A DNA stretch of 64,000 bases, taken from positions 62,001-126,000 of the forward strand of contig NZ_JACHBD010000011.1 of NCBI RefSeq assembly GCF_014200175.1. The letters are read 5' to 3'. Shown one piece after another: positions 709 to 62,197 of the stretch (the first letter of the stretch is position 1; the number at the start of each line of letters is the position of its first letter). Source of the stretch: Rhizobium lentis (GTDB taxonomy: Bacteria; Pseudomonadota; Alphaproteobacteria; Rhizobiales; Rhizobiaceae). The translations under genes and the position numbers were made by a program. Below the pieces are notes generated by a model. That model was given only the letters and a program-made list of their open reading frames with translations. It had not been told where the DNA came from and did not search any database.

Positions 709-777
709 AAAAGTGTGATCTTTTCGGAACCATCTCCGCCCCGCAGCGTTAACAGCGCTGGTGACCAAGAGGGGCAG

Positions 778-2703: not shown

Positions 2704-2821
2704 CCGTGACTGACTGGTGCTACCGCATGTCGCCCGGAAGTGTGGGTCACCGGGATAACGGACATGCGTAAAAACAAAGAACCAAAGCGCGAGGAGCGAA
2801 TCTGAAAGATCGCGACGCGCT

Positions 2822-4021: not shown

Positions 4022-4163
4022 GTGCAGCTTTTAGATGTTCTGTTCAAGCAAGCAGTATCGGACATCGCTTTACAAGAGATTAAGCCGCCGAGCGCAAACT
4101 ACCGGCGTGCAACTGTTGCTTGCCGGAGAGCCGCACCGGTGCAAAGCGACAGCGAGTGCCAAC

Positions 4164-4919: not shown

Positions 4920-4952
4920 GGGCTTAGGGCGGCGCGGCGGCCGCCCCTTTCG

Positions 4953-5971: not shown

Positions 5972-5976
5972 GGTCA

Positions 5977-7980
5977 TTACACCTGCTCGGCAAGCAGCGC
6001 CGTGCGCTTGCCTTCCGTTTCGGTCACCTTGCCGGCGGGAATGTAGAAGTCGCGTTTGTAGTTGAAGGTATGGCCGATCGCCACGGCAAGCAGCGCGACG
6101 GCGGAAACGATCACCAGCCACCACATGTACCAGATCAGGCCGAAGGCGAGCGCGACGCTGATTGCCGACAGGACGGCGCCGGTGCCGGTATTCTTCGGCA
6201 TGTGGATCGGCTTGAAGCCGCCGAGCGGGCGCTCGTAGCCGCGCTTTTTCATGTCGTACCAGCTGTCATGGTCGTGAACCACGGGCGTGAAGGCGAAGTT
6301 GTAGTCCGGCGGCGGCGAGGAGGTCGACCATTCCAGCGTCCGGGCATCCCAGGGATCGCCGCTGTCGTCTCGCAATTCCTCGCGTTTCATGAAGCTGACG
6401 ACGATCTGGATCAGGAAGGCGGCGATGCCGAGCGCGATCAGGCCGACACCGAAGGCCGCGATGATGAACCAGATCCGCAGCGACGGATCCTCGAACTGGC
6501 TCATGCGGCGGGTGACGCCCATCAGGCCAAGCACGTAGAGCGGCATGAAGGCGAACCAGAAGCCAATCTGCCAGAACCAGAAGCTCATCTTGCCCCAGAA
6601 GGGATCGAGCTTGAAGCCGAAGGCCTTCGGGAACCAGTAGTTCACGCCGGCGAACATGCCGAAGAGAACGCCGCCGATGATAACGTTGTGGAAATGGGCG
6701 ATGAGGAACAGCGAATTGTGCAGCACGAAGTCGGCCGGCGGCACGGCCAGCATGACGCCGGTCATGCCGCCGATAACGAAGGTCACCATGAAACCGACCG
6801 TCCACAGCATCGGCACCTCGTAGCGGATGCGGCCGCGATACATGGTGAAGAGCCAGTTGAAGATCTTCGCTCCCGTGGGGATCGAGATGATCATCGTGGT
6901 GATGCCGAAGAAGGAGTTGACGGAAGCACCCGAGCCCATGGTGAAGAAGTGGTGCAGCCAGACGATGTAGGACAGGATCATGATCACGCAGGTTGCGTAG
7001 ACCATTGAGGCGTAGCCGAACAGGCGCTTGCCCGAGAAGGTGGCGACCACTTCCGAGAAGATGCCGAAGGCCGGCAGCACCAGGATGTAGACCTCCGGAT
7101 GACCCCAGATCCAGATGAGGTTGATGTACATCATCGGATTGCCGCCGAGGTCGTTGGTGAAGAAGTTCGTCCCGGCATAGCGATCGAGCGACAACAGGGC
7201 GAGCGTTGCCGTCAGGATCGGGAAGGAGGCGACGATCAGCACGTTGGTGCAGAGCGCCGTCCAGGTAAAGACCGGCATCTTCATGAAGGTCATGCCCGGC
7301 GCGCGCATCTTGACGATGGTGGCGATCAAGTTGATGCCCGAGAGCGTCGTGCCGACACCGGCCACCTGCAGGCCCCAGATATAATAGTCGACGCCGACGC
7401 CGGGACTGTAGGCGGCGCCCGACAGCGGCGGATAGGCGAGCCAACCGGTCTGGGCGAATTCGCCGATGAACAGCGACAGCATGATGATGATCGCGCCGGC
7501 GGTCGTCATCCAGAAGGAGAAGTTGTTGAGGAAGGGGAATGACACGTCGCGCGCGCCGATCTGCAGCGGCACCACGAAGTTCATCAGGCCGGTGACGAAG
7601 GGCATCGCCACGAAGAAGATCATGATGACGCCGTGGGCAGTGAAGATCTGATCGTAATGGTGCGGCGGCAGGTAGCCTTCCGACCCGTTGAAGGCGACCG
7701 CCTGCTGGACGCGCATCAGGATCGCATCGGAGAAGCCGCGCAGCAGCATGATGACGGCCAGGATCACATACATGATGCCGATCTTCTTGTGATCGACGCT
7801 GCAGATCCAGTCGTTCCAGAGCAGGCCCCAGAACTTGAAATAGGTGATGGCGCCAAGCACGGCGAGACCGCCGATGACGACGCCGATGAAGGTCACGACC
7901 AGAATCGGCTCGTGGTAGGGGATGGCATCGAGGGTCAACCGGCCGAAGATCAACTTCAGGAGGTCAGGATTGGAAAACAT
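5977..7980 (-). CDS. cyoB: Cytochrome o ubiquinol oxidase subunit I
   Basis: 667 residues, matching the usual 660-670. It carries the heme-copper oxidase core: [17 protein letters not shown] (low-spin heme His), [21 protein letters not shown] with the CuB His and its cross-linked Tyr, the HHFFTMG pair of CuB histidines, and [10 protein letters not shown] with the high-spin and low-spin heme histidines. Fifteen transmembrane helices are expected. The enzyme oxidises ubiquinol, reduces O2 to water and pumps protons. It follows cyoA by 42 bases in the operon cyoABCD-SURF1. High-aeration expression is usual for this enzyme. Confidence 0.97.
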
Positions 7981-8022
7981 GGAACAACCCGTTCATTATG
8001 TCTTGCGACGCAAAGCGCCAGG

Positions 8023-9177
8023 TTAATTGTTGTTGTTGAGCTGCGCAGGCGCCGGATCGGTGCCGTTGCTCATGCCGGGCATGGAATGGCCGTCGTGCTG
8101 CATGTCCATGCCGGGCATGTCATGCTGCATGTCGTTGCCATCAGAATTGCGCGGCGGTTCGGCCTTTGCCGGAACGCCCGTTGCAGGTACGGTTGCGCCC
8201 GGCTGGACGACGCCTTCGCCGGCATGGCGGTTGTCGTATTGCAGCTTTTCGCGGTTCTCGGTGCTTTCCTTGCCGCCGCCGCCCATCATGTCGATGTGCA
8301 TCATCTCGTTCATGCACATCTTGCCCGGCGTGGCGCACATGTTGAGGATGGCGGTGTAGAGATCGGCATCGGCGCCGGCATAATAGCGCACCGGCTCCTT
8401 CTCGCTCGGCTTCTCGAGCTTCAGGTAGGCGTCGCGGTTGAGCATCGTGCCCTGCTGCTTGACCTTGGCCACCCAGGCGTCAAACCCCTCGCGGTTGAGG
8501 CCATGGAACTTGAAGCGCATATGCGAGAAGCCGGCGCCGCTGTAATTGGCCGAGAAGCCCTCATATTCGCCTTCTTTGTTGATGACGGCGTGCAGCTTCG
8601 TTTCCATGCCGGGCATGGCGTAGATCTGGCCGGCGAGCGCCGGGATGTAGAAGGAGTTCATCACCGAGGAGGCGGTGATCTTGAAATTGATCGGCATGTC
8701 GACGGGCGCGGCGAGCTCGTTGACGGTGGCAATGCCGACTTCGGGATAGAAGAACAGCCATTTCCAGTCGAGCGCCACGACCTCGACGGTCAGCGGCTTG
8801 GTATCAGCCGGGATGGCGCGCTCGGCATCGAGCCGGTCGAGGGGGCGGTAGGGATCGAGCTTATGCGTGGAAATCCAGGTGACGGCGCCGAGCGCAATGA
8901 TGATCGCCAGGGGTGCCGCCCAGATGACGATTTCGAGGCGGGTCGAATGATGCCATTCCGGCGCGTAAGTCGCGGCCGTGTTGGAGCGGCGGTAGCGCCA
9001 GGCGAAGAGCAGCGTCAGGAAGATCACAGGAACGATGATCAGAAGCATCAGCACCGTCGAGATGACGATCAGATCGCGCTGTTGCGCGGCGATGTCGCCG
9101 GAGGGCGCCATGACCACCATGTTGCATCCTGCCAGGAAAAGCAGCGGCAAGACGGATAGAAGGCGGGAAAACTTCAT
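8023..9177 (-). CDS. cyoA: Cytochrome o ubiquinol oxidase subunit II, with long Met/His-rich tail
   Basis: 384 residues. Signal peptide with lipobox (LFLAGC, lipidated Cys18), two transmembrane helices, then a periplasmic cupredoxin-like domain without the CuA cysteines, as expected for a quinol oxidase (no CxxxC). ATG 9177 starts the lipoprotein signal; the frame upstream is non-coding. E. coli CyoA is 315 residues: here some 70-80 extra residues follow MCATPGKMCMNEMMHIDMMGG, ending in repeats such as MQHDMPGMDMQHDGHSMPGM. That composition is typical of periplasmic copper-binding tails. First gene of the cyo operon; its promoter must lie in 9178-9566. Confidence 0.95.
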   Translation of the reverse strand: MKFSRLLSVLPLLFLAGCNMVVMAPSGDIAAQQRDLIVISTVLMLLIIVPVIFLTLLFAWRYRRSNTAATYAPEWHHSTRLEIVIWAAPLAIIIALGAVTWISTHKLDPYRPLDRLDAERAIPADTKPLTVEVVALDWKWLFFYPEVGIATVNELAAPVDMPINFKITASSVMNSFYIPALAGQIYAMPGMETKLHAVINKEGEYEGFSANYSGAGFSHMRFKFHGLNREGFDAWVAKVKQQGTMLNRDAYLKLEKPSEKEPVRYYAGADADLYTAILNMCATPGKMCMNEMMHIDMMGGGGKESTENREKLQYDNRHAGEGVVQPGATVPATGVPAKAEPPRNSDGNDMQHDMPGMDMQHDGHSMPGMSNGTDPAPAQLNNNN

Positions 9178-9566
9178 GAGTTTTGGCACGTCTCTAAGCT
9201 CTTGTTGTTTCGTTTTGTCCACGACTAAAGCACTGAACCGAATAGCGACATGAGGCGGAAGGTCGCAGTGCAGCAAACATGCCGCACTGCGGCAAAAATC
9301 ATTGCGCGCTAGTGCTTTGAAATCCTGATGAAATCTAGAAGGATTTTAGCCCTGCGCATGTTTCAATCCAATATATCCCCAACTGCCGGTCAGGCCAGCA
9401 TTTGCAGGGGAAATCACACTCCGGATCACGCAATTTTTTCGGTCCGCGCTTCATTTGAGCCGTGATGATGAACTATTTCGGTCTTACGGACTTGATAAGC
9501 CTGCCGGTTTGATCAAGATCAGGCTTGAGGCGCCTTGCCGGAAGCGCCTTAACGAGGAGGCGTTTT
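9178..9566. promoter_or_regulatory. Divergent control region between cyoA and the MFS gene
   Basis: 389 bases without a gene, holding the promoters of the leftward cyo operon and the rightward transporter gene. Visible elements are an AAATCC...GGATTT inverted repeat near 9318-9347 and an FNR/FixK-like box at 9509-9522 (listed separately). No convincing sigma-70 hexamer pair could be assigned by eye for cyoA. Confidence 0.6.
9509..9522. promoter_or_regulatory. FNR/FixK-type box
   Basis: TTGATCAAGATCAG matches the FNR/FixK consensus TTGAT-N4-ATCAA at nine of ten defined positions. It lies 45 bases before the ATG of the MFS gene and about 330 bases before cyoA, so it is better placed to control the MFS gene; depending on the transcription start it could activate or block it. 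In rhizobia such boxes respond to low oxygen through FixK or FnrN. Binding is inference. Confidence 0.55.
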
Positions 9567-10898
9567 ATGGCAACAACATCGCATTACGGACCGTCGTCGT
9601 CGTCGCTTGAACGCGACGCACGGCGCATTCACGACGACAAGCCGGTGTCACCGGGCAGCATCGCCATCGGCGTGGTGATCGGCCGCATGTCGGAATTCTT
9701 CGATTTCTTCGTCTACGGCCTCGCCTCGGTCCTGGTCTTTCCGCAGCTCGTCTTTCCTTTCGCGCCCGACAGGCTGACCGGCACGCTCTATTCCTTCGCC
9801 ATCTTCTCGCTCGCTTTCCTCGCCCGTCCCGTCGGCTCCGTCGTCTTCATGACCATCGACCGGATGTATGGGCGCGGCACGAAGCTGACGATCGCGCTCT
9901 TCCTGCTCGGCGGCTCGACGGCCTCGATCGCCTTCCTTCCCGGTTACGCTGAGATCGGCGGCTGGTCGATCGCGCTGCTGGCGCTCTTCCGTCTCGGCCA
10001 GGGCTTCGCGCTCGGCGGCGCATGGGACGGCCTGGCATCACTGCTCGCACTCAACGCGCCGGCCAATCACCGCGGTTGGTACGCGATGATCCCGCAGCTC
10101 GGCGCGCCGATCGGTTTTGCGCTGGCAAGCACGCTGTTCGGTTATTTCGTCGCCAATCTTTCCAGTGAGGATTTCCTCTCCTGGGGCTGGCGCTATCCCT
10201 TCTTCGTCGCCTTCGCGATCAATGTCGTGGCGCTGTTTGCGCGGCTGCGCCTGGTCATGACCAAGGAATTCGGCACGCTGCTCGAACAACATGAGCTGGA
10301 GGCTGCGCCGATCCTCGAGGTGCTGCGCGTTCATGGCCGCGACATCCTGATCGGCGCCTTCGTGCCGCTCGCGAGCTTCGCCATGTTCCACCTGGTGACC
10401 ATCTTCCCACTCGGCTGGATGAGCCTCTACGGCAACCAACCGATCGGCACCTTCATGGTGGTGCAGGTGGTCGGCGCCATGGTCGGCGTCGTCGCCATCA
10501 TCGCCTCGGGCCTGATCGCCGACCGCATCGGGCGGCGCGCCCAGCTTGCCATCTGCGCCGTCATCATCGCCGTCTTCAGCTTTATCGGGCCGACCCTGAT
10601 CGCATCCGGCAATAACGGCCACGATGCCTTCGTCATTATCGGCTTCGGCGTGCTCGGCCTGTCCTTCGGTCAGGCGACCGGTTCGATCTCGTCGCGTTTC
10701 GGCCGCGGCTACCGTTATACCGGCGCTGCCTTCACCTCGGACCTCGCCTGGCTGGTCGGCGCCGGCTTCGCACCGCTGGTGGCGCTCAGCCTCTCCAGCC
10801 GCTTCGGCCTGACCTTCGTCGGTTACTACCTTCTTTCCGGCGCCATCTGCACGCTCGCCGCACTGGCCTTCAGCAAGGCGCTGGAACAGCGCGAATAG
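9567..10898 (+). CDS. MFS transporter, metabolite:H+ symporter type
   Basis: 443 residues with twelve predicted transmembrane helices. GRMSEFFDFFVYGLASVLVFP in helix 1, and RLGQGFALGGAWDG in helix 4-5, are typical of the MHS branch (ProP/KgtP/ShiA relatives), which takes up organic acids, betaines or related small molecules with protons. ATG 9567 is set by an excellent GAGGAGG ribosome site six bases upstream; the longer frame from 9525 is discarded. Divergent from the cyo operon and preceded by an FNR-like box, suggesting oxygen control. The substrate cannot be assigned. A perfect hairpin 30 bases after the stop may end transcription. Confidence 0.88.
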   Translation: MATTSHYGPSSSSLERDARRIHDDKPVSPGSIAIGVVIGRMSEFFDFFVYGLASVLVFPQLVFPFAPDRLTGTLYSFAIFSLAFLARPVGSVVFMTIDRMYGRGTKLTIALFLLGGSTASIAFLPGYAEIGGWSIALLALFRLGQGFALGGAWDGLASLLALNAPANHRGWYAMIPQLGAPIGFALASTLFGYFVANLSSEDFLSWGWRYPFFVAFAINVVALFARLRLVMTKEFGTLLEQHELEAAPILEVLRVHGRDILIGAFVPLASFAMFHLVTIFPLGWMSLYGNQPIGTFMVVQVVGAMVGVVAIIASGLIADRIGRRAQLAICAVIIAVFSFIGPTLIASGNNGHDAFVIIGFGVLGLSFGQATGSISSRFGRGYRYTGAAFTSDLAWLVGAGFAPLVALSLSSRFGLTFVGYYLLSGAICTLAALAFSKALEQRE

Positions 10899-48228: not shown

Positions 48229-48804
48229 TCAGCGTGTGGCGATCGAGACGAGATAACATTCGGCTTCGCCGTCGATTTCAAGCGCGCTTTGCGCTTGATT
48301 CTCGATCAGCAGCGCATCGCCGGCCGCGAGCGCGCCGGTCTCGTCGCCGTGGCGGAATGACAGGGTGCTGCGGTGGCAGAGCAACAGGCATGTCGGCGAC
48401 GTCAGCGGCAAGGCCTTGCCGCCAGCGAGTTCAATGCGGACCAGCCTGTGGGTAATGCCGTCGCGGTGGGTCATGACGTTGAGATCGGTGATCGCGCCGT
48501 CCTCGAGTTTGGCCGTGACCGGGATATCGGCCGGGAAGGCCAGCGGATCGCTCGCCGTTGTCAACAGCACCGGCGTGCCGCCTTCGATGTCGAGCTCCAT
48601 GCCGTTGCCGTCGAGAATCGCCAGCGTGCGGTCTATGCCGGGAAAGATCGAGAACGGCCCGTCGGCTGCGACGGTCGCCATGCTGACGCGCCAGTCGAAG
48701 CCGGCAAGGCCGGCCTCTTCCGGCGAAACGGCGATCTCCACCGTTTCGCCGCCGCCGTTTTTCCACGGCATGCGCTTGTGATCGGCAGCGCGCAGGATCC
48801 TCAC
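48229..48804 (-). CDS. hutD: HutD family protein, GTG start
   Basis: 191 residues, bicupin fold. HKRMPWKNGGGETVEIAVSP is the family's opening signature, with FSIFPGIDRTLAILDG next. HutD is a conserved member of hut loci; in Pseudomonas it limits hut expression, probably by binding a pathway intermediate such as formylglutamate or urocanate. GTG 48804 starts five bases after the hutU stop. Last gene of the leftward hut operon. Confidence 0.9.
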   Translation of the reverse strand: MRILRAADHKRMPWKNGGGETVEIAVSPEEAGLAGFDWRVSMATVAADGPFSIFPGIDRTLAILDGNGMELDIEGGTPVLLTTASDPLAFPADIPVTAKLEDGAITDLNVMTHRDGITHRLVRIELAGGKALPLTSPTCLLLCHRSTLSFRHGDETGALAAGDALLIENQAQSALEIDGEAECYLVSIATR

Positions 48805-48809
48805 CGGGC

Positions 48810-50483
48810 TCAGTTCCCGAGAATGCCGGGCAGGCGCAGGCCCTTTTCCCGGGCGCAGTCGAGGGCGATGTCGTAACCGGCATCGGCGTGGCGCATGACG
48901 CCGGTCGCCGGATCGTTCCAGAGCACCCGCTCGAGACGCTTGGCCGCATCATCCGTGCCGTCGGCGCAGATGACGACGCCGGAATGCTGGGAGAAGCCCA
49001 TGCCGACGCCGCCGCCATGATGCAGCGACACCCACGTGGCGCCCGACGCGGTGTTGAGCAGGGCGTTCAGCAGTGGCCAGTCAGAGACCGCATCCGAGCC
49101 GTCCTTCATCGCCTCGGTTTCGCGGTTCGGCGAGGCGACGGAGCCGGAGTCCAGATGATCGCGGCCGATGACGATCGGCGCGGAAAGCTCGCCGGTTCTA
49201 ACCATCTCATTGAAGGCCAGTGCCAGGCGGTGGCGGTCGCCGAGGCCGACCCAGCAGATGCGCGCCGGCAGGCCCTGGAAGGCGATGCGTTCTCTCGCCA
49301 TGTCGAGCCAGTTGTGCAGGTGCTTGTTGTCGGGCAGCAGTTCCTTCACCTTGGCGTCGGTCTTGTAGATATCCTCGGGATTGCCCGACAGGGCCGCCCA
49401 GCGGAACGGGCCGATGCCGCGGCAGAACAGCGGCCGGATATAGGCCGGCACGAAGCCCGGGAAGGCGAAGGCGTTTTCCAGGCCCTCGTCCTTGGCGACC
49501 TGGCGGATGTTGTTGCCGTAGTCGAGCGTCGGAATGCCGGCGTTCCAGAAGGCGATCATCGCCTCGACATGCTCGCGCATCGAGGCGCGCGCCGCCTTTT
49601 CCACCGCCTTCGGATCGCTTTCGCGCTTGGCCTTCCACTCGGCCATCGTCCAGCCCTTCGGCAGGTAGCCGTTGATCGGGTCGTGCGCCGAGGTCTGGTC
49701 CGTGACGATATCGGGCCTGATGCCGCGGCGGACCATTTCCGGCAGGATTTCGGCGGCATTGCCGAGCAGGCCGACGGACTTGGCTTCCCCTGATTTGGTC
49801 CAGGCATCGATCATCGCAAGCGCTTCATCGAGCGTTTCGGCCTTGGCGTCGAGATAGCGGGTGCGCAGGCGGAAATCGATCGAATCGGGATTGCATTCGA
49901 CGGCGAGGCAGCAGGCGCCGGCCATGACGGCGGCGAGCGGCTGTGCGCCGCCCATGCCGCCGAGACCGCCGGTCAGGATCCACTTACCCTTGAGATTGCC
50001 GCCGTAATGCTGGCGGCCGGCCTCGACGAAGGTCTCGTAGGTGCCCTGCACGATGCCCTGCGTGCCGATATAGATCCACGAACCGGCCGTCATCTGGCCG
50101 TACATCGCAAGGCCCTTTTTATCCAGCTCGTTGAAATGATCCCAGGTCGCCCAGTGCGGCACGAGGTTGGAGTTGGCGATCAGCACGCGCGGCGCATCCT
50201 TGTGGGTGCGGAACACGCCGACCGGCTTGCCGGACTGCACGAGCAGCGTTTCTTCTTCCGTCAACGTCTTCAGCGTCGCGACGATGCGGTCGAAATCCTC
50301 CCAGGTGCGGGCGGCGCGGCCGATGCCGCCATAGACGACGAGCTCGTTCGGATTTTCCGCGACATCGGGATCGAGATTGTTCATCAGCATGCGCAGTGGC
50401 GCTTCGGTCATCCAGCTCTGGGCATTGAGCTCGTTGCCGCGGGGCGCGCGGATTTCACGGATATTGTGGCGTGGATTGCTCAT
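48810..50483 (-). CDS. hutU: Urocanate hydratase
   Basis: 557 residues, matching the family. [13 protein letters not shown] is the NAD-binding stretch, and [21 protein letters not shown] carries the conserved Cys near residue 410. Converts urocanate to imidazolonepropionate using tightly bound NAD+ as an electrophile. It follows hutG by 24 bases in the hutIHGUD operon. Confidence 0.97.
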
Positions 50484-50507: not shown

Positions 50508-51311
50508 TTATCGTTTCAGGCCCGGTGCGATCTGCTCGATGCGCACCAGAATGTCTCTGAGATGGACGCGAAGCCTGTCCGCCTTCGCGGTGTCGTAGGC
50601 AAAGGGTGGTGCCTCGGTCTCAAGATGAGTCGACTGCGCGAGCTCCATCTGAATCGCATGCACGCCGGTTTCCGGCCGGCCATAATGGCGGGTCGTCCAG
50701 CCGCCCTTGAAGCGGCCGTTGAGCACGCTGTCATAGCCTTCTGCGACTTCGACAACGGTGAGCGTTGCCTGCTCTATGGCGCCGTCGCATGTCCGGCCCA
50801 AATCGGTGCCGATATTGAAATCCGGCAGCTTGCCTTCGAAGAGGAAGGGAATATGCGAGCGGATCGAGTGGCAATCATAGAGGATCGCCACACCATGGAT
50901 TGATCTGACACGCTCGATCTCGGCCGCAAGGGCGGCATGATAGGGCGAATGAAAGTCACTCAGCCGCGCCGCTATATCGGCTTCGTCAGGCGCCTGCCCA
51001 TCCTTCCAGATCGGCTTGCCGTCGAAATCCGTCTCCGGGACGAGGCCGGTGGTGTTCTGGCCGGGGTAGAGGCTGACGCCTTGGGGATCGCGGTTGGCGT
51101 CGATCACATAGCGGTGGAAGGTGGCGCGCACGGTCGTGGCGTCATCGAGCAGGCCGTCATAGAGCCGGTGGATGTACCAGTCGGTATCGGCGAGGATCCG
51201 GCCATTGTCGTTGAGCCGGTCGTAGATCGCGGGGGGCACCTCGGTGCCGGTATGGGGGAAAGCGAGGATGACGGCGGAGGTGCCCCGATGAATTTCGTAT
51301 GGTGTGGTCAT
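50508..51311 (-). CDS. hutG: N-formylglutamate deformylase
   Basis: 267 residues. AFPHTGTEVPPAIYDRL at the start and ILYDCHSIRSHIPFLFEG in the middle are the conserved zinc-site regions of this amidohydrolase family. It releases formate from N-formylglutamate, the last step of the five-step histidine route used together with hutF. ATG 51311 (MTTPYEIHRG) is chosen; the longer frame runs through the palindromic repeat between hutH and hutG. Confidence 0.94.
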   Translation of the reverse strand: MTTPYEIHRGTSAVILAFPHTGTEVPPAIYDRLNDNGRILADTDWYIHRLYDGLLDDATTVRATFHRYVIDANRDPQGVSLYPGQNTTGLVPETDFDGKPIWKDGQAPDEADIAARLSDFHSPYHAALAAEIERVRSIHGVAILYDCHSIRSHIPFLFEGKLPDFNIGTDLGRTCDGAIEQATLTVVEVAEGYDSVLNGRFKGGWTTRHYGRPETGVHAIQMELAQSTHLETEAPPFAYDTAKADRLRVHLRDILVRIEQIAPGLKR

Positions 51312-51319
51312 TGCAGAAA

Positions 51320-51473
51320 CCCCTCCCCAACCCCTCCCCACAAGGGGGAGGGGCTAAGCTGTGGCACCGGCTCGCAAAACAACAAGCCGGCTGCATATGC
51401 TACGCTCAAGAGTGAATACGGCGAGGGCCGCAGGTTAAGCCCCTCCCCCTTGTGGGGAGGGGTTGGGGAGGGG
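51320..51473. repeat. Long near-perfect inverted repeat between hutH and hutG
   Basis: Left arm 51320-51357 and right arm 51435-51473 are reverse complements over about 37 bases with one or two differences; each arm is itself a hairpin (CCCCTCCCC..AAGGGGGAGGGG). The 77-base spacer is unrelated. It differs from the RIME-like elements and resembles a MITE. Transcribed in the hut operon it would form a very stable stem. Confidence 0.85.
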
Positions 51474-51494: not shown

Positions 51495-53030
51495 TCAGCC
51501 CTCCAGAACCGGCAAGATGCCGGATGAAACCGAGGCGTTCAGCGCCCCTGTTGCCACCAGTTCAGCGGCGGCGGCGAGGTCGCCCGCCATGTAACGATCG
51601 CTCTCGAGGCTCGGCACTTTGCTGCGGATAGCGGCGATCGCCTTCAAAAGCTCCGGACTCGTCGAAAGCGGCGCGCGCAGTTCAACGCCTTGCGCGGCGG
51701 TCAGAGCCTCGATGCCGATGATGGCAAACAGGTTTTCGGTCATCTGCAGAAGGCGCCGGGCGCCGTGGCAGGCCATCGAGACATGGTCTTCCTGGTTGGC
51801 CGAGGTCGGGGTCGAATCGACCGAGGCCGGGTGCGACATCTGCTTGTTCTCGGACATCAGCGCTGCCGAGGTCACTTCGGCGATCATCAGGCCAGAATTC
51901 AGGCCCGGCTTCTTGGCGAGGAAGGCCGGCAGACCGTAGGAAAGCGTGGGATCAACCAGCAATGCGATGCGGCGCTGCGAGATGGCGCCGATCTCGCAGA
52001 CGGCAAGGGCGATCTGATCGGCGGCGAAGGCGACGGGTTCGGCGTGGAAATTGCCGCCCGAGACGACGGAATTGTCCGACAGAACCAGCGGATTATCTGT
52101 GACGGCGTTGGCTTCGATTTCGAGGGTGCGGGCAACCGAACGCAAGAGATCGAGGCAGGCGCCGTCGACCTGCGGTTGGCAACGGATGCAATAGGGATCC
52201 TGAACGCGCTCATCACCCTCGATATGGCTCTGGCGGATGACGGAGCTTTCGAGTAGGGCGCGAAGCGCGGCCGCGGTGTCGATCTGTCCCTTGTGGCCGC
52301 GCAATGTGTGGATATCGGAATGGAAAGGCGCGGAGGAGCCCATCGCCGCATCGGTCGACATGGCGCCGGTGATGAGCGCCGACCGTGCGGCGCGATGCGC
52401 GCGGAAAAGGCCGGCGAGCGCCAGCGCCGTCGACGTCTGCGTGCCGTTGATCAGCGCCAGGCCTTCCTTGGCGGCGAGCACGACAGGTTTCAGCCCGGCC
52501 CTTTCGAGCGCTGTGGCGCCCGAAAGACGTTCGCCGGCGAAGAAGGCTTCGGCCTCGCCTATCATCACGGCCGCCATATGGGCGAGCGGCGCAAGATCGC
52601 CGGAGGCGCCGACCGAGCCCTTTTCCGGGATCAGCGGGATGACGCCCTTTTCAAGCATGCCTTCGATCAGCCGTACCAGCTCCAGCCGCACGCCGGAGGC
52701 GCCGCGGCCGAGCGAGACCAGCTTCAGCGCCATGATCAGCCGGACGATGTTCTCCGGCAGCGGCGCGCCGATACCGCAGCAATGCGACAGGATGAGATTG
52801 CGCTGCAGCGTAGCGACGTCGGCGCTGTCGATCTTGATCGAGGCGAGTTTTCCAAAGCCGGTATTGATGCCATAGACCGGCGCGTTGCCGGCGGCGATCT
52901 CGGCGATGCGGGCGGCAGCCTTGGCGATGCCGGCGTCGAAAGAGGGGGCAAGCCTTGCCGGCTCCCCGGTCCAATAGATGGTTTCCAGATCCCTGAGAGA
53001 GACGGAGCCCGGGTGGAGCGTGATAGTCAT
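51495..53030 (-). CDS. hutH: Histidine ammonia-lyase
   Basis: 511 residues, full length. [16 protein letters not shown] contains the Ala142-Ser143-Gly144 triad that cyclises to the MIO electrophile; Tyr53 ([10 protein letters not shown]), LINGTQ with the Asn, [11 protein letters not shown] and NQEDHVSM (Glu) complete the active site. It releases ammonia from histidine to give urocanate. Second gene of the hut operon; its ATG overlaps the hutI stop by four bases. It should be compared with the MIO-less paralogue at 60.7 kb. Confidence 0.97.
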
Positions 53031-54289
53031 CGACCGTTCCTTTCGCCTTTGAAGACGCGTGTATGAAGCGGGTTGAAGCCGATGCGGTAGACGAGCTCGG
53101 CGAGGCTGTCGACATTCCAGACGGCAAGATCGGCCGATTTGCCGGCTTCAATCGTTCCTGTCTCGCTGAGCAGCCCGAGCGCGCGCGCGCCTTCGCGGGT
53201 GGCGCCGGCGATGCATTCCTCGACAGTGAGGCCGAACAGTGTCGCCGACATGTTCATGGTGAGCAGCATCGAGGTGAGCGGCGAGGTGCCGGGATTGCAG
53301 TCGGTAGCGATGGCGATCGGCACGCCGGCCTGGCGCAGTGCCTCCACAGGCGGCTTCTGCTTCTCATGGATGGCGTAGAAGGCGCCGGGCAGGAGAACGG
53401 CAACAGTGCCAGAGGCAGCCATCGCGGCAACGCCTTCGGCGTCGAGATATTCCAAATGATCGGCCGATAGCGCCCCATAACTGGCAGCAAGTTTGGCGCC
53501 GCCGAGATTGGAAAGCTGCTCGGCATGCAGCTTGACCGGCAGGCCCAGCGCCTTGGCCTTGTCGAAGACCCGAGCGATCTCTGCCGTTGAAAAGGCGATG
53601 CCCTCGCAAAAGCCGTCGACCGCGTCGGCAAGGCCGAGATTATACATGTCGTCGAGGCCGGGCAGCACGACATCGTCGAGATAGTCGCCATTGCGGCCCT
53701 TATATTCCACCGGCGTTGCATGGGCGCCGAGATAGCTGGTGGCGACACGGACCGGCCTGATATGGCCGAGCAGACGGGCGCTCTGCAGCATCTTCACTTC
53801 GCCGCTCCGGTTGAGGCCATAGCCGGATTTGATCTCGACCGTGGTCACGCCTTCGGCAAGCAGCGTATCGAGCCTCGGCAGCGCCTCGGCGACGAGTTCC
53901 TCGACCGACAGCGCATTGGTCGCCTGAACGGAGGAGACGATGCCGCCGCCCGCTCGTGCGATTTCCTCATAGGTCGCGCCTTCAAGCCGCATCTCGAACT
54001 CGCGGGCGCGATTGCCGCCGTGAACAATATGGGTGTGGCAGTCGACGAGGCCGGGCGTTACCCAACGGCCTTCGAGATCGACGATTTCGGAATGTTCGAT
54101 GGCTGACGCCGCCAGCTCGCTTTCGGCGCCAGCAAAGGCGATGAGGCCGTTTTCGGTGAGCACGGCGCCCTTCTCGACGATGCCGAGCCCCGGACGATCG
54201 GCCGGGAGCGTCGCCAGCCGCGCGTTGCGCCACAGCACCGGCCTGGTATCAACGGATGGGGTTCCTTCAGAAAAATTGTTCCCGGTCAT
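53027..54289 (-). CDS. hutI: Imidazolonepropionase
   Basis: 420 residues, amidohydrolase superfamily. Metal ligands in [14 protein letters not shown] (HxH), KLHAEQLSN (His) and [10 protein letters not shown] (Asp). Opens the imidazolone ring to form formiminoglutamate. ATG 54289 (MTGNNFSEG) is chosen; the frame upstream passes through the operator. First gene of the leftward hut operon and divergent from hutF across 122 bases holding the HutC box. Confidence 0.96.
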
Positions 54290-54318
54290 CAGCTTTGCGC
54301 CTTTCCTTATGCTGAAAC

Positions 54319-54330
54319 ATGTATATACAT
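54319..54330. promoter_or_regulatory. HutC operator
   Basis: ATGTATATACAT is a perfect 12-base palindrome containing GTATATAC, which fits the GTMTAKAC consensus described for the HutC subfamily of GntR regulators. It is placed 30 bases before hutI and 82 before hutF, so one dimer could repress both directions until urocanate is present. Confidence 0.7.
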
Positions 54331-54411
54331 AATAGGCAGGTGACAAGAGAAATTTTGCGCGCTCTTCTGGAAAAGAAAGATCGGCGGCGCGGCAGAAGGG
54401 GAGAAAAGGTC

Positions 54412-55758
54412 ATGACCACAGTTCACGCAGGCACGGCCCTGATGCCGCAAGGCTGGCAGAAGGACGTGCGGCTGACGCTCGATGCCGGGCGCATTGCGCG
54501 GGTCGAGGCCGGCGTTGCCGCCGCGCCCGGCGATGAGCGCCATGCTCTGATCGTTCCCGCCATGGGCAATCTGCACAGCCATGCCTTCCAAAGGGCGATG
54601 GCCGGTCTTGCCGAAGTGCGCGGTCCGGCCAACGACAGCTTCTGGAGCTGGCGCACAGTCATGTACAAGTTCGCGCTGGCGATGACGCCGGAGCATGTCG
54701 AGGCGGTTGCGGCCAAGCTTTATACGGAGATGCTGGAGGCAGGCTTTTCCCGGGTCGGTGAATTCCACTATCTCCATCACGACAAGGATGGCGGTGCCTA
54801 TGCCAATATCGCCGAGCTCGCTGAACGCATTGGTGCGGCGAGCCAGCAGACCGGCATCGGTCTGACCCTGCTACCCGTCTTCTATGCCCATTCCGGTTTC
54901 GGTGGCGCGGCGCCGATCGACGGCCAGCGGCGCTTCATCAATTCGCTCGAAAGCTTCGAAAGGCTGATGGAGGGATGCCGCGGCGTGACCGGCCGGCTCG
55001 ACGGCGCCGAGCTCGGGCTCGCGCCGCACAGCCTGCGCGCCGCAACACCGGAGGAATTGATGAAGCTTGTGCCGATGGCAGGCGACGGCCCGATCCATAT
55101 CCATGTCGCCGAGCAGGTGAAGGAGGTCGAGGACTGCATCGCCTGGTCGGGAGCGCGGCCCGTGCATTGGCTGCTGGATCATATGCCTGTGGATAAGCGC
55201 TGGTGCCTGATCCATGCGACGCATATGACCGAGGATGAGACGCGGCGGATGGCGAAAAGCGGTGCGATCGCCGGTCTCTGCCCGATCACCGAAGCCAATC
55301 TCGGCGACGGCGCTTTTGCCGCGCCGCTTTTCGTGGAAGAGGGTGGGCGGTACGGCATCGGTTCGGATTCCAACGTGCGGATCTCGCTGTCGGAGGAACT
55401 GCGCCAGCTCGAATATTCGCAGCGTCTGGCGCTACGCGCCCGCAACGTCGTTGCAGCGCCCGGCGGTTCGACGGCGCTTGCGCTGTTCAGCCAGGCGCTC
55501 GCCGGCGGCGGGGAGGCGCTCAAAGCCCCGGCCGTTCTCGCCGAAGGCCATCATGCCGATCTCGTTTCGCTCGATGTCGCGGCTGTTCCTTATCTTTCCG
55601 GCGACCAGATCCTCGATCACTGGCTGTTTGCCGGAGGCGTCTCCGTCGATTGCGTCTGGGCGCGCGGCCGCAAGCAGGTGGAAGGCGGCCGCCATTTCAA
55701 GCGTGACGCCATCGACCGTCGCTTCCTTGCTGCGATGGGTGAGTTGCTGGCTGCCTGA
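54412..55758 (+). CDS. hutF: Formimidoylglutamate deiminase
   Basis: 448 residues, amidohydrolase superfamily. PAMGNLHSHAFQRAM carries the HxH metal site, HIHVAEQVKEVEDC the third His, IHATHMTEDE and GIGSDSNVRISL the remaining ligands. It hydrolyses formiminoglutamate to N-formylglutamate plus ammonia, which HutG then deformylates. ATG 54412 has GGGGAG upstream. First gene of the rightward hutF-hutC unit. Confidence 0.95.
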   Translation: MTTVHAGTALMPQGWQKDVRLTLDAGRIARVEAGVAAAPGDERHALIVPAMGNLHSHAFQRAMAGLAEVRGPANDSFWSWRTVMYKFALAMTPEHVEAVAAKLYTEMLEAGFSRVGEFHYLHHDKDGGAYANIAELAERIGAASQQTGIGLTLLPVFYAHSGFGGAAPIDGQRRFINSLESFERLMEGCRGVTGRLDGAELGLAPHSLRAATPEELMKLVPMAGDGPIHIHVAEQVKEVEDCIAWSGARPVHWLLDHMPVDKRWCLIHATHMTEDETRRMAKSGAIAGLCPITEANLGDGAFAAPLFVEEGGRYGIGSDSNVRISLSEELRQLEYSQRLALRARNVVAAPGGSTALALFSQALAGGGEALKAPAVLAEGHHADLVSLDVAAVPYLSGDQILDHWLFAGGVSVDCVWARGRKQVEGGRHFKRDAIDRRFLAAMGELLAA

Positions 55759-56573: not shown

Positions 56574-57329
56574 TTACTCTTCGAACATCTTGCCGCTGCG
56601 CGCCTCGAGCCGGTAGCGATAGCCGGGATAGACGAGGCGAGCGGTCGAGACCACCTGTTTTGCCGACCAGGTGCGTCGGCGGATCGTCAGGCAGGGCTCG
56701 CTCTTCAGGATGGTCAGGAGCTTGCATTCCCAGGCCTGCGGCATTGCCGCCTCGACGACGTGCTCGGAGCCGCTGAGCGGGGCGGCCGCCGTCAGATAGG
56801 CGTTCGGCGTCAGCGTCGTGAAATCCTGCTCGAGATATTCGGGAGCGGCCTGCGGATGGACGAACCGGTCCTCGATCTGCACCGGAACGCCGTTTTCGCT
56901 GTGGACGATCAGCGAGTGGAAAACGGGAGCGCCGATTGCCAGTTCCAAGGCGTCGGCGATCTCGGGAGAGGCGGTTTCCTGGGCCAGAATGACGACGGAG
57001 GCCTCATGGATATGGCCGCGTTCGGCAATCTCCTCGGCAATGTTTCGCACCTCGAACAGCGCCGAATAGCCCTTGCGCTCGGCGACGAAAGAACCAACGC
57101 CCTGAATGCGGACGAGCTCGCCCTCATTGGCGAGTTCGCGCAGCGCCCGATTGGCGGTCATCTTGCTGACACCGAGTTCGACGACCAGCTCGTTTTCCGA
57201 CGGCACCCGGTACTTTGGCGGCCATTCGCCACTGTGGATCCGATCGAGAATGACCTGCTTGACGCCGGCATAAAGCGGCGTGCTGTCATTCCCAACCAGG
57301 TCGCGCTTCATCTCGTCGGAACGCTTCAT
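56574..57329 (-). CDS. Second GntR/HutC-family regulator
   Basis: 251 residues with the same layout as HutC: GntR HTH (LYAGVKQVILDRIHSGEWPPKYRVPSENELVVELGVSKMTANRAL) and a UTRA domain ending in RRRTWSAKQVVSTARLVYPG. It is clearly paralogous to hutC. It is divergent from the amino-acid importer operon and is probably its repressor, sensing a histidine-related ligand; HutC cross-regulation is possible. Start ATG 57329, with ATG 57311 as an alternative. Confidence 0.87.
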   Translation of the reverse strand: MKRSDEMKRDLVGNDSTPLYAGVKQVILDRIHSGEWPPKYRVPSENELVVELGVSKMTANRALRELANEGELVRIQGVGSFVAERKGYSALFEVRNIAEEIAERGHIHEASVVILAQETASPEIADALELAIGAPVFHSLIVHSENGVPVQIEDRFVHPQAAPEYLEQDFTTLTPNAYLTAAAPLSGSEHVVEAAMPQAWECKLLTILKSEPCLTIRRRTWSAKQVVSTARLVYPGYRYRLEARSGKMFEE

Positions 57330-57519: not shown

Positions 57520-58362
57520 ATGAAATTCAGCACAATCCTGCTTTGCGGCGTCGCCGCTCTTTCCGCCTTCGCAGCACCCGCATTTGCCAAGGACTGGACG
57601 AAGGCGACCATCACGCTTGAAGGCGCCTATGCGCCGTGGAACCTCACCAATGCCGACGGCACGCTCGGCGGCTTCGAGCCGGAACTCGCCAAGGTGCTTT
57701 GCGAACGCGCCAAGATCGAATGCACGCTCGTCGCCTCCGATTGGGACGGCATGATCCCGGCTCTCAACGCCGGCAAGTTCGACGTCATCATGGATGCGCT
57801 GTCGATCACCGACGAGCGCAAGCAGGTCATCGATTTTACCATTCCCTATGCCGCGACGCCCGCCGCCTTCGCCACCGCCAAGGACAGCCCGCTGGCGAAA
57901 GCCGCCGGCACCGGCGCCACGATCAAGATGACCCCCGGCCAGACCGGCGTGAAGGAGATCGACGCGCTGAAGGAGGCCTTCAAAGGCAAGACGATCGGCA
58001 TTCAGGCGGCGACCGTCTATGCCAAATTCGTCTACGACAATTTCGGCGACATTGCCGAGATCCGCGAGTACAAGACCGGCGCCGACCGCGACCTCGACCT
58101 GCAGAACGGCCGCATCGACCTCGGCTTCGATGACGCCGTCTATTTCGCCAATGCCTTCCAGGCCGCCAACGGCGCGCTCGACTTCACCGGCCCCGAGATC
58201 ATCGGACCGATCTGGGGCGAGGGCGAGGGTCTCGGCATCCGCAAGGCCGATACCGACCTGCGCGACAAGTTCAACGTGGCGATCAAGTCGGCGCTTGCCG
58301 ATGGCACCGTCAAGGACCTTTCGATGAAGTGGTTCAAGGTCGACGTCAGCCCGCAGCAGTAA
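57520..58362 (+). CDS. Polar amino-acid ABC transporter substrate-binding protein
   Basis: 280 residues. Sec signal peptide MKFSTILLCGVAALSAFAAPAFA, then the SBP_bac_3 fold with LEGAYAPWNLTNADGTLGGFEPELAKVLC and DWDGMIPALNAGKFDVIMDALSIT, the ligand-binding start shared with HisJ/ArgT/LAO proteins. ATG 57520 follows GAGGAG. First gene of a five-gene unit with two permeases, an ATPase and a HutH-like gene, so histidine or a related amino acid is the likely cargo. Confidence 0.9.
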   Translation: MKFSTILLCGVAALSAFAAPAFAKDWTKATITLEGAYAPWNLTNADGTLGGFEPELAKVLCERAKIECTLVASDWDGMIPALNAGKFDVIMDALSITDERKQVIDFTIPYAATPAAFATAKDSPLAKAAGTGATIKMTPGQTGVKEIDALKEAFKGKTIGIQAATVYAKFVYDNFGDIAEIREYKTGADRDLDLQNGRIDLGFDDAVYFANAFQAANGALDFTGPEIIGPIWGEGEGLGIRKADTDLRDKFNVAIKSALADGTVKDLSMKWFKVDVSPQQ

Positions 58363-58467: not shown

Positions 58468-59193
58468 ATGGCAAGCTTGGAACTGCTTGGCTTCGGCTCG
58501 ACGGGATGGGGCGCGCTGCTCATTCTCGCTGCCTTGATGACGCTGGCCGTCACCGCGACGGCGCTTGCAATCGGCGCGGTGCTCGGCGCCATCGTGGCGG
58601 GTGCGAAGCTTTCCGGCAATCCTCTCCTCGTCGCCTTCGGCAATGTCTATACCACCGTCTTTCGCGGCGTGCCGGAACTGCTGATCATCTATCTCATCTA
58701 TTTCGGCGGCTCTTCGGCCGTCACCTCGATCGGCAAGGCTATGGGCTACGAGGGTTTCCTCGGCCTGCCCTCCTTCGCCGCCGGGGCGCTTGCCGTCGGC
58801 ATCATCTCCGGCTCCTATCAGGCGGAGGTGTTCCGCGGCGCTTATCTGGCGATCGCCAAGGGTGAGCTCGAAGCCGCTTCGGCGATCGGTATGCACCGCG
58901 GCATGCGCTTCCGCCGCATCATCATCCCGCAGGTGCTTCGCTTCGCCATTCCCGGCCTCGGCAATGTCTGGCAGCTCAGCCTCAAGGATTCGGCGCTGGT
59001 ATCGGTCACCGGTCTTGCCGAGCTGATGCGAACCAGCCAGGTCGCGGCGGGTTCGACCCGGCAATATTTCCTGTTCTTCATCGTCGGCGGCTGTCTCTAC
59101 CTGATCCTGACCAGCCTTTCTGACCGTATCTTCAACGGCGCGGAGCGCCGCGCCAATCGCAGCATGCCGGCCTCCGCCATGGGCCAGGCGTAA
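58468..59193 (+). CDS. Amino-acid ABC transporter permease (HisQ-type)
   Basis: 241 residues, five transmembrane helices, with the EAA loop GELEAASAIGMHRGMRFRRIIIPQVLR and VFRGVPELLIIYLIYFGG, typical of HisQ/GlnP permeases. It forms a heterodimer with the next gene's product. It begins 106 bases after the binding-protein gene and is seven bases from the second permease. Confidence 0.92.
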   Translation: MASLELLGFGSTGWGALLILAALMTLAVTATALAIGAVLGAIVAGAKLSGNPLLVAFGNVYTTVFRGVPELLIIYLIYFGGSSAVTSIGKAMGYEGFLGLPSFAAGALAVGIISGSYQAEVFRGAYLAIAKGELEAASAIGMHRGMRFRRIIIPQVLRFAIPGLGNVWQLSLKDSALVSVTGLAELMRTSQVAAGSTRQYFLFFIVGGCLYLILTSLSDRIFNGAERRANRSMPASAMGQA

Positions 59194-59200: not shown

Positions 59201-59908
59201 ATGATGGATTTCACCTTTCTCGCCTCGACCATGCTGACGCTGCTGAAAGCCGTGCCGACGACGCTGATCCTGTTTTCACTGTCGATCTTCTTCGGCGGCC
59301 TGCTGGCGCTCGTCATCGTCACGATGCGGGTCAGCGGCAACCGCTATCTATCGGGTTTTGCCAAGGGCTATATCTTCGTCTTTCGCGGCTCGCCGCTCTT
59401 GATCCAGATGTTCCTGGTGTTCTACGGCCTCGGCCAGTTCGGCGTCATCCGCTATTCCTTCCTCTGGCCGTTCCTGCGCGAGCCGATGGTCTGCGCCGTT
59501 CTGTCGCTGGCGCTCTGCACCGCCGGCTACACGGCGGAAATTTTTCGCGGCGGCATTCGCGCGGTTTCGCCGAAGGAGATCGAGGCGGCGCGCTCGATCG
59601 GCATGTCCGGCTTCCTGATGGTGCGCCGGATCCTGGCGCCGATCGCCTTCCGCCATGCGCTGCCGGCCTATTCCACCGAGATCGTGCTGATGATGAAATC
59701 GACGGCGCTCGCCAGCCTCGTCACCGTCTGGGAGGTCACCGGCGTCGCCCAGCGCCTGATCTCGCAGACCTACCGCACGATGGAAGTCTTCCTCTGCGCG
59801 GCGATCATCTATCTCGTTCTCAACTTCATCATCCTGCAGGGCATGGCCCTGCTGGAATATTCGCTGTCCCGACACCGCCGCGCGGCCCCGCAGCCGCTGA
59901 AGGCGTAA
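59201..59908 (+). CDS. Amino-acid ABC transporter permease (HisM-type)
   Basis: 235 residues with five transmembrane helices and the EAA loop [53 protein letters not shown] is the HisM/GlnP signature. The start is ATG 59201 or the adjacent ATG 59204; a GGAGG site precedes both. Partner of the HisQ-type permease. Confidence 0.92.
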
Positions 59909-59933: not shown

Positions 59934-60710
59934 ATGCCAGGCGTAACCCGACTTTCGGTCCGCAATATCCGCAAGAGCTTCGGCACGCACGAAGTGCTGC
60001 GCGGCATTTCCCTCGATGCCGAGGATGGCGACGTGATTTCGCTGCTCGGCGCCTCCGGCTCCGGCAAATCGACCTTTCTGCGCTGCATCAACCTGCTCGA
60101 AACCGCAAGCGACGGCGAGATCTGGGTCGATGGCGAGCATATCGAGATGGTTCACAAGAACGGCAAGACAAGGCCGGCGAGCCAGAAGCAGGTCGACCAT
60201 ATCCGCTCCGAGCTCGGCATGGTGTTCCAGTCCTTCAATCTCTGGTCCCACATGACCATCCTGCAGAACGTCATCGAAGGGCCGATCCACGTGCTGAAGC
60301 GGCCGCGCGCCGACTGCGTCGCCGAGGCCGAGGCGCTGCTCGAAAAGGTCGGCATCGCAGACAAACGTCACGCCTATCCCGCCCATCTCTCCGGCGGCCA
60401 GCAGCAGCGCGCCGCAATCGCCCGCGCTTTGGCGATGAAACCGAAGGTGATGCTTTTCGACGAGCCGACTTCGGCGCTCGATCCGGAACTCGTCGGCGAG
60501 GTGCTGCGTGTCATGCGCGCGCTTGCCGAGGAAGGCATGACCATGCTCGTCGTCACCCACGAGATGAGCTTTGCCCGCAATGTCTCCAACCGCGTCGTCT
60601 TCATGCGCGAAGGGCTGGTTGAAAGCAGCGGCAAGCCGGACGAGATGTTCGGCAGCGGCACCTCGCCGGCCTTCCGCCAGTTCATCGGCCATTTCGGAAC
60701 AGGGCAATGA
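59934..60710 (+). CDS. Amino-acid ABC transporter ATP-binding protein (HisP-type)
   Basis: 258 residues, complete. Walker [12 protein letters not shown]-loop VFQSFNLW, signature [12 protein letters not shown], Walker [13 protein letters not shown] and switch VVTHEMSF. The insert after Walker A ([21 protein letters not shown]) is the HisP-type one. Its stop overlaps the ATG of the HutH-like gene by four bases, so the enzyme-like protein is made together with the transporter. Confidence 0.95.
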
Positions 60711-62197
60711 CGGTCATCATCGATCAAATGCTGACCTGGCGCGACGTCGCGCGCGTCGGGGCGGGCGAAGCACTTGTGCTGTCGGCGGCCGCCTGGGCGC
60801 GCATCGAACAGGCAAGCCGCATCGTCGAGCGTATCGTCGAGACCGGCGTGCGCGCCTATGGCGTCAACACCGGTGTCGGCGCGCTCGCCGATACCGTCGT
60901 CGACCGGGCCTCGCAGAGCCTGTTGTCGCGCAGCATCGTGCTCAGCCATGCCTGCGGCGTCGGGCCGCTGCTAGCCGGGCGCGAAGTGCGCGCCATCATC
61001 GCCGCCCAAATCGCCAATTTTGCCCATGGTCATTCCGGCGTGCGCCGCGAGATCGTCCAGCACCTCACAGCCTTGCTGGAGCATGATTGCATTCCCGACG
61101 TGCCGTCGAAAGGCTCGGCCGGTTATCTCACCCACAATGCCCACACCGCGCTCGTGCTGATCGGCGAAGGCAGCGCCAATGTGGCCGGCCGGCGCATGAG
61201 CGGCCGTGAGGCGCTGGCGGCGATCGGCCTTCAGCCGTTGCTGCTCGGCGCCAAGGAGGGCCTGAGCCTCGTCAACGGCACGGCCTGCGCCACCGGGCTC
61301 ACCGCCACGGGACTTTTGCGCGCCGAACGGCTGCTCGACTGGGCCGATGCCATCGCGGCGCTGACGCTGGAGGCGGCAGGCTGCCAGATCGCTGCCTTCG
61401 ACAAGGCGGTGCTGTCGTTGCGCCCGTCGACGGGAATTGAAAAGGTCGGCGCCGCGCTCCGCGCACGCCTTGCCGGCAGCGGCCTCGTCGCCGCCTCCTT
61501 GGGTCGGCGCACGCAGGATGCGCTCAGCCTGCGTTCGGTGCCGCATGCCCATGGCGCCGCCCGCGATGTCTTCGACAATTCCGCCCGCATCACCGATCAG
61601 GAACTTGCCTCGGTGACGGACAATCCGGCTGTGTCAGGCACGCCGGAGCAGCCTGTCGTCTCCTCAGAGGCGCATGCCGTCGCCCCGGCGCTCGGGCAGG
61701 CCGCCGACAGCCTCGCAATTGCGCTGGCGCAGATCGGCGCGATCAGCGAACGGCGTATGGACCGGCTGGTCAACCCGCTGGTCAGCGGCTTGCCGCCGTT
61801 CCTGGCAAGCGATGCCGGCAGTCACTCCGGCTTCATGATCGCCCAATATACCGCCGCCGCGCTCAGCAACGAAAACCGCCGGCTCGCCGCGCCGGCAGCC
61901 CTGGACGGTGGCCTGACCTCCGCTCTGCAGGAGGATTTCCTCGCCCATCCGACAGCCGCCGCCGACAAGCTGCTCGCCGTCATCGACAATGCCGAATATA
62001 TCCTGGCGATCGAGCTGATGGCCGCGGCCCAGGCGCATGATTTCCTCGCGGCGACGGCGCCGCGGGCAGCGGGCACGGATATCCTCTACCGGGCAGTGCG
62101 GCAGCGCATCTCCCATTATGACGACCAGCGGCCGCTGAACGGTGATATCGAGGCCGTGCGCAGCCTGATCCGCGAGACCGCGCCGCCGGCTATCTAG
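60707..62197 (+). CDS. HutH-like aromatic amino-acid lyase homologue lacking the MIO triad
   Basis: 496 residues, full length for the HAL/PAL/TAL superfamily. The fold signatures remain: Tyr51 (AYGVNTGVG), [22 protein letters not shown] with Asn190, and DNPAVSG. But where hutH reads [15 protein letters not shown] this gene reads [12 protein letters not shown] (135-146): exactly the Ala-Ser-Gly that forms the MIO cofactor is deleted, in frame. The [14 protein letters not shown] segment also replaces the Tyr and Gln of [10 protein letters not shown]. Normal lyase chemistry should be impossible. The frame is intact and coupled to the importer ATPase, implying selection. Possible roles: ligand-binding or sensing, or another reaction. 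Confidence 0.88.

Follow-up and report, generated by a model that had tools for sequence, protein, structure and literature searches.

A conserved HutH paralogue of Rhizobium lentis without the MIO triad, a putative hercynine trimethylamine-lyase

Genes at the locus

The stretch of DNA analysed here, referred to as the window, comprises 64,000 nucleotides of Rhizobium lentis contig NZ_JACHBD010000011.1. It carries a set of hut genes followed by importer genes and a second HutH-like lyase gene. The order is hutU, hutG, hutH, and hutI on the minus strand, hutF and a regulator on the plus strand, a HutC-type regulator on the minus strand, and genes for a solute-binding protein (SBP), two permeases, an ATPase, and the lyase on the plus strand. 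The individual features are listed below.

48229..48804, minus strand: gene adjoining hutU, presumably HutD-like
48810..50483, minus strand: hutU, urocanase, which would take up urocanate, the product proposed for the lyase
50508..51341, minus strand: open reading frame taken to be hutG, with related genes at other loci
51495..53030, minus strand: canonical hutH with GSVGASGD; TIGR01225 723.3 bits, cut-off 539.15
53027..54346, minus strand: open reading frame taken to be hutI, with related genes at other loci
54319..55758, plus strand: hutF, formimidoylglutamate deiminase, 55% identical to a HutF_N-bearing protein of locus L086
55814..56542, plus strand: probable second regulator of the GntR type, following hutF, the name assigned by similarity
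56574..57329, minus strand: GntR regulator of the HutC type (TIGR02018 295.9 bits, cut-off 220), transcribed divergently from the importer and lyase genes
57520..58362, plus strand: ABC importer solute-binding protein, SBP_bac_3; the nearest NCBIfam model is of the lysine/arginine/ornithine type, below its cut-off
58468..59193, plus strand: ABC importer permease 1, by likeness and position
59201..59908, plus strand: ABC importer permease 2, by likeness and position
59934..60710, plus strand: amino-acid-type ABC importer ATPase, its stop overlapping the lyase start (ATGA)
60707..62197, plus strand: MIO-less HutH paralogue, proposed as a putative hercynine trimethylamine-lyase; 496 aa, one intact frame
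61109..61144, plus strand: codons of the motif (residues 135-146), with Gly139-Tyr140-Leu141 where histidine ammonia-lyase (HAL) has Gly-Ala-Ser-Gly-Asp-Leu

The lyase gene and its missing MIO site

The protein encoded at 60707-62197 was aligned with the window HutH and with Pseudomonas putida HAL (PDB 1b8f), in which the MIO triad is residues 142-144, using MAFFT. A single Tyr was found in place of Ala-Ser-Gly-Asp, a net loss of exactly three residues, and MIO therefore cannot form in this protein. The placement of the gap is ambiguous (either Ala-Ser-Gly was lost and Asp changed to Tyr, or Ser-Gly-Asp was lost and Ala changed to Tyr), and the triad is gone either way. The preliminary description of the locus had proposed a HutH paralogue with an in-frame loss of the MIO triad; this was confirmed by the alignment, with the exact three residues depending on the gap placement. 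Its reports of a clean frame, of the retention of Tyr51 and Asn190 (HAL Y53 and N195 in the alignment), and of an overlap of the lyase start with the importer ATPase stop were likewise reproduced: 60707-62197 is a single open frame, and the ATG at 60707 lies within ATGA, giving a 4-bp overlap. The same description held that all active members of the superfamily need MIO, which is contradicted by ergothionase, an enzyme without MIO according to the available text of PMC13405746 and without Ala-Ser-Gly in its sequence. MIO-less members of the superfamily are already known, and the proteins with the three-residue gap, called gapped lyases below, are a variant that goes by the name HutH.

The window lyase is 37% identical to the HutH of its own genome, 38% to P. 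putida HAL, 28% to the ergothionase of T. denticola, and 25% to the other MIO-less lyase of its own genome. Comparison of the window gene with six homologues gave dN/dS values of 0.096-0.129, and purifying selection on the gapped lyase is strong. A sequencing error or a decaying pseudogene was ruled out on the basis of dN/dS of about 0.1 and of the identical gap in all loci of two sets (80/80 and 30/30), which are described in the following section.

Distribution, phylogeny and annotation

A scan with one genome per species confirmed 562 relatives, of which the best 80, with identities of 69-93%, were kept. These best 80 of 562 came from records of Rhizobium, Agrobacterium, Mesorhizobium, Phyllobacterium, Aminobacter, and similar, and each of them carried the motif GS[AV]GYL.H. 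The same gap was present in 30 of 30 further loci, 3 from plasmids and 27 from other genomes; one of these (L134) appears to be the contig of one of the 80 (L019), each being 204,240 bases long. Matches were obtained in 9 of 385 genomes in a class-level draw at E 1e-105 and in 23 of 398 genomes in a phylum-level draw at E 1e-100, both counts including the window's own genome and G037. The 27 loci were derived from 29 matched genomes besides the window's own, leaving out two of the window's genus (G417 and G611), and one family (f194) supplied nine of them.

The alignment contained 111 gapped rows, which are non-identical; the window gene itself is present at least twice (in the window and in L002). 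A tree was constructed from 50 of 157 rows with the motif columns excluded, rows that were at least 80% identical or shorter than 460 aa having been dropped. The 35 gapped rows formed one clade (support 100/99), which adjoined 11 of the 12 ASG rows with support that is not firm (90/75). Two ergothionase rows, both long branches, were placed apart from the gapped clade. The gapped lyases constitute an intact, conserved, MIO-less clade near HAL, and most members are accompanied by their own genes for transport and regulation. Since a canonical ASG HutH is also present in 13 of 14 genomes checked among the 27, a second lyase is unnecessary for histidine in them.

The window lyase scored 457 bits on TIGR01225, the HutH equivalog model, which is below the cut-off of 539.15. 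Gapped proteins of three genomes (G509, G436, and G495) exceeded this value with 546.4-549.5 bits, so the cut-off fails to separate gapped from canonical proteins. Scores on the NCBIfam models for MIO aminomutases, PAL, and TAL were far under the cut-offs, and the triad common to such enzymes is missing. Among the annotated Rhizobium plasmid records listed, most label the lyase histidine ammonia-lyase.

Active site and structural model

The active-site residues of HAL hold the imidazole ring, bind the carboxylate, and serve in acid/base catalysis. All 111 gapped rows retain the HAL residue at six such positions (Y53, H83, N195, Q277, R283, and E414, HAL numbering), and a histidine-like substrate is therefore probably still held. 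Two other positions differ from HAL. Y280 is replaced by Leu in every one of the 111 gapped rows (Leu273 of the window lyase), as in both ergothionase rows, and F329 is lost, with Ala in 88 and Pro in 23 gapped rows in the MAFFT alignment. Pairwise alignment places the invariant Ala322 at HAL F329; the loop aligns in two ways, and the window protein has no Phe there. These two changes would enlarge the amine side of the pocket, which we read as open at that end with the imidazole and the carboxylate still held.

The AlphaFold2 model of the window lyase, generated with 30 aligned homologues, had a mean pLDDT of 85.9 and a pTM of 0.89. Stretches of low pLDDT (322-324, 361-364, 366-372, and 398-408) correspond to loops that touch active-site positions, and for this reason the model leaves the substrate undecided. 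The top Foldseek matches to the model were HAL structures (TMq 0.88-0.89), followed by ergothionase at TMq 0.86-0.88. With VIA-align, HAL, tyrosine aminomutase, and ergothionase were about tied at Z 40-42 (40.3 for ergothionase 6s7j, 40.5-42.3 for HAL). The window lyase thus resembles P. putida HAL in fold (TMq 0.88-0.89, Z about 41), sequence (38% identity), the six binding and catalytic residues, and its hut neighbourhood, and differs from it in the single Tyr at the MIO site, the change of Y280 to Leu, and the loss of F329.

A histidase that works without MIO, or with an electrophile built otherwise, would account for the intact histidine-binding residues, and the transporter HutXWV takes part in histidine uptake in P. 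fluorescens (PMC8871633, available text). This explanation is very improbable given that Ala-Ser-Gly-Asp is absent, that Y280 is changed and F329 lost in every gapped row, and that canonical HutH accompanies the gapped lyase in 13 of the 14 genomes checked.

Gene neighbourhoods of gapped lyases

The preliminary description had raised the matter of whether the gap is common to a clade beside the same transporter. The single clade agrees with this, and so does the window-type amino-acid importer found upstream of the lyase in 57 of the best 80 of 562 relatives; elsewhere other importers or none occur. In the same 80 loci, a HutC-like gene was near the lyase in 67 and any hut gene in only 29, an OpuAC-type SBP was located within 6 kb in 9 (mostly Agrobacterium), and none of importer, regulator, oxidase, or hut gene was found near the lyase in 10 (Mesorhizobium and Aminobacter). 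An oxidase gene was directly downstream in 39 of these best 80 of 562, with a median of 23 bp between BLAST matches. The sole copy scanned, that of L020, scored 412.7 bits on the N-methyl-L-tryptophan oxidase model (cut-off 257). The genome of the window lacks the oxidase gene, its best match having an E value of 2e-9.

The oxidase raises the alternative that the lyase acts, together with this neighbour, on another N-methylated amino acid such as mono- or dimethylhistidine or tryptophan betaine. Rhizobia do encounter plant betaines, and the gene downstream of the lyase in 39/80 loci has a relative that scores above the cut-off of the N-methyl-L-tryptophan oxidase model. We consider this unlikely, however, since H83 and E414 on the imidazole side are invariant and hut genes and HutC-type regulators are near the lyase in several families. 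Less methylated amines are also poor leaving groups without MIO, and on general chemical grounds would be expected to leave poorly here.

In several families the gapped lyase stands among hut genes. The order hutU-ProX-ProW-ProV-gapped lyase-hutH-hutI-hutG was observed in five loci of family f194 (L140-L144), and a BCCT transporter is located between hutU and the gapped lyase in L151 and L152. Betaine transporters near gapped lyases are of three kinds, i.e. ProU, OpuC-type, and BCCT. For comparison, 20 control loci with canonical hutH were hand-picked across 16 families, from genomes that exceed the TIGR01225 cut-off and have no match to the gapped lyase. Of the 27 gapped loci, 15 had a betaine-type transporter (OpuAC-family SBP or BCCT) at a distance of up to about 9 kb, compared with 0 of 20 control loci (Fisher p 2.5e-5). 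When only loci with two or more hut genes were counted, the figures were 12/17 and 0/18, and counting by family gave 5/9 and 0/16 (p about 0.002). The BLAST queries of this comparison came from gapped loci, and a check with Pfam models PF04069 and PF02028 was therefore added, which gave at least 15/27 gapped loci versus 0/20 controls. The remaining 12 of the 27 comprise seven loci with an amino-acid-type SBP and five (L109-L112 and L135) with neither type.

These neighbourhoods bear on whether the protein is an enzyme. The preliminary description had left a choice between a binding or sensing protein and an enzyme of different mechanism. The first would be a catalytically dead HutH paralogue with a binding, sensing, or regulatory role, perhaps in mixed tetramers with HutH. 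The lost triad and the adjoining importer speak for it, as does the dispensability of hutH1 for growth of P. fluorescens on histidine (PMC8871633, available text). It is nevertheless judged improbable: six other binding and catalytic positions are invariant in 111/111 rows, dN/dS is about 0.1, many copies have no hutH near (any hut gene in 29/80 loci), and the linkage to betaine transporters was absent from all 20 control hutH loci. The second option, an enzyme of different mechanism, is favoured by the invariant residues, by the strong purifying selection, and by the importers and HutC-type regulators near the lyase in many loci.

At locus L084 (A. tumefaciens pAt15955, 1-10482) a gapped lyase lies beside genes for a ProU-type importer and for urocanase-like, hydantoinase-like, carbamoylase-like, and Zn hydrolase proteins, and the cluster also carries a molybdopterin S/N-oxide reductase. 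No S-Me-THD match was found in the L084 locus. This gene content points to a different substrate at L084, perhaps ergothioneine or a related compound. A cluster like that of L084 occurs on a Lichenihabitans plasmid (L183, 6920-14712) with an ordinary ASG HutH that is 77.6% identical to the window hutH product, and the urocanase-like genes of the two clusters are 82% identical. Because the L183 counterpart has an ordinary HutH, clusters of this type do not settle the chemistry of the lyase; L183 possibly represents a variant histidine-type pathway in a lichen bacterium.

Comparison with ergothionase

A third lyase of the same genome, located on contig C2, is ergothionase-like (GSIGC-ADIG) and has both ergothionase lysines. 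Its gene belongs to a minus-strand run (L089, 7152-14660) in which S-Me-THD, a second urocanase-like protein, an amidohydrolase, and an M20 hydrolase are also encoded. We take this run to resemble the five-step ergothioneine degradation pathway, and by analogy the C2 cluster probably handles ergothioneine. The division within the genome would then be ergothioneine at the C2 locus and hercynine at the window locus, where the product urocanate would arise beside the ordinary hutU.

The window lyase could itself be an ergothionase that releases trimethylamine from ergothioneine and yields thiourocanate. Like the T. denticola enzyme (PDB 6s7j), it lacks the MIO triad, has Leu at HAL 280, and has the same fold, its model giving a VIA Z of 40.3 with 6s7j and 40.5-42.3 with HAL, about a tie; the elimination of trimethylamine proposed here would also be alike, and the L084 member has a ProU-type transporter beside it and gene neighbours reminiscent of ergothioneine degradation. 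Other features speak against this assignment. Lysines 63 and 383 are catalytic in ergothionase (numbering of the 6s7j chain). They are Ala and Tyr in the window lyase, and in 111/111 gapped rows these places hold Ser, Ala, or Cys and Tyr or Leu, never Lys, whereas the third lyase of the genome has both. HAL 195 is Asn in gapped lyases and Ser in both ergothionase rows, and the MIO-site gap of ergothionase is one residue (SIGE-GD) instead of three. The gapped lyases form a separate clade in a tree in which the ergothionase rows are long branches, and the identity to the window lyase is 28%. The genome also has what is probably a dedicated cluster for this purpose, and the window lyase sits with a true hutU, not with the second urocanase. 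An ergothionase is thus an unlikely explanation, and it was set aside as the main reading on the missing lysines, Asn195, and the separate tree placement.

Proposed reaction

The reading we favour, with a confidence somewhat better than even, is that the window protein is no histidase but an enzyme of the aromatic amino acid lyase fold that works without MIO. Its substrate would be a histidine trimethylated at the alpha nitrogen, most probably hercynine (histidine betaine), from which it would release trimethylamine and form urocanate. In ordinary HAL, MIO makes the amino group a leaving group. With a betaine substrate MIO would be dispensable, because the quaternary trimethylammonium is already a leaving group, as in ergothionase. 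To judge from the transporter families, the importer would bring in the betaine. The HAL-type pocket, whose residues are conserved, would hold the imidazole and the carboxylate, and acid/base residues would take the beta proton as trimethylamine leaves. Urocanate would enter the hut pathway, be degraded by the neighbouring enzymes, and relieve HutC repression. The N-methyl amino acid oxidase encoded by the next gene in 39/80 loci might handle less methylated relatives.

Hercynine as the substrate is inferred from several features. Those that count for it are the loss of the MIO triad without replacement in one clade that keeps six HAL pocket residues, the nearby betaine transporters, hut genes, HutC-like regulators, and oxidase, and the separate ergothionase-like cluster in the genome. 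Counting against it are the window importer, which is of the SBP_bac_3 amino-acid type and not of the betaine type, the 12/27 loci without a nearby betaine transporter, the 10/80 loci without any found partner gene, the presence of hut genes in only 29/80, the absence of the oxidase from the genome, and the L084 context, as well as the reported role of HutXWV in histidine uptake (PMC8871633) and, if PA5093 is a gapped lyase, the reported phenotype of its deletion (PMC12772324).

On a broader scale, the chances are just above even that a family of 'hercynases' is hidden under the HutH name, i.e. MIO-less histidine-betaine trimethylamine-lyases across Alphaproteobacteria and other Pseudomonadota, with hut as a hercynine route that supplies trimethylamine to soil and the root zone. 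The loss of MIO in this family would apparently be separate from that in ergothionase, with Tyr280 changed to Leu in both cases. Hercynine is made by fungi and actinobacteria. If this is true, a common HutH annotation would be corrected, a route for histidine betaine would be added, and the superfamily would have a second, apparently independent case of working without the MIO cofactor.

In the open-access literature, no paper was found that links hercynine to MIO and ammonia-lyases or to the formation of trimethylamine and urocanate, and none on thiourocanate. The hercynine-lyase reading was not found stated there and may be in print elsewhere.

Comparison with Pseudomonas hut loci

In P. fluorescens, HutXWV takes part in histidine uptake and hutH1 is dispensable for growth on histidine (PMC8871633, available text). 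In L140-L144 the gapped lyase occupies the place of hutH1 of strain SBW25 in the hutXWV-hutH1 module of that paper; the importer there is ProU-type, whereas that of the window is amino-acid-type. The hercynine reading, if true and if SBW25 HutH1 has the gap, would be a likely reason for the dispensability of hutH1. The reading would also suggest a substrate for the ProU-type transporters near hut, such as PA5096 and PA5103 of P. aeruginosa, proteins that are not needed for growth on glycine betaine and whose substrates were not yet known in 2013 (available text of PMC3691474).

The locus tag PA5093 presumably belongs to the second lyase of P. aeruginosa. According to the available text of PMC12772324, in which the gene is named hutG, a strain deleted for PA5093 grows poorly on histidine and urocanate. 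If PA5093 is a gapped lyase, this phenotype speaks against the hercynine reading, or the locus tag is a slip. PA5093 is merely listed in the available text of PMC4412052; that of PMC9002059 has nothing on the loss of MIO, and that of PMC7653990 gives no lead for the lyase reading.

Further lyase variants

Among the 14 genomes checked for a canonical HutH, only G663 (L152 and L166) yielded no ASG lyase other than a diverged one, so that the gapped lyase may be the main entry to the hut pathway there. A second lyase of L152 (5010-6545) has a one-residue gap at the MIO site (GSLGA-ADLAQ), with Lys at the place of ergothionase 383 but not 63. It adjoins an OpuAC-type SBP (4078-4965), and the gapped lyase, hut genes, and BCCT transporter are in the same locus. 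Genomes of the genus coded g278 contained extra TIGR01225 matches of 346-390 bits, one of which (G532 C13) has an internal TGA.
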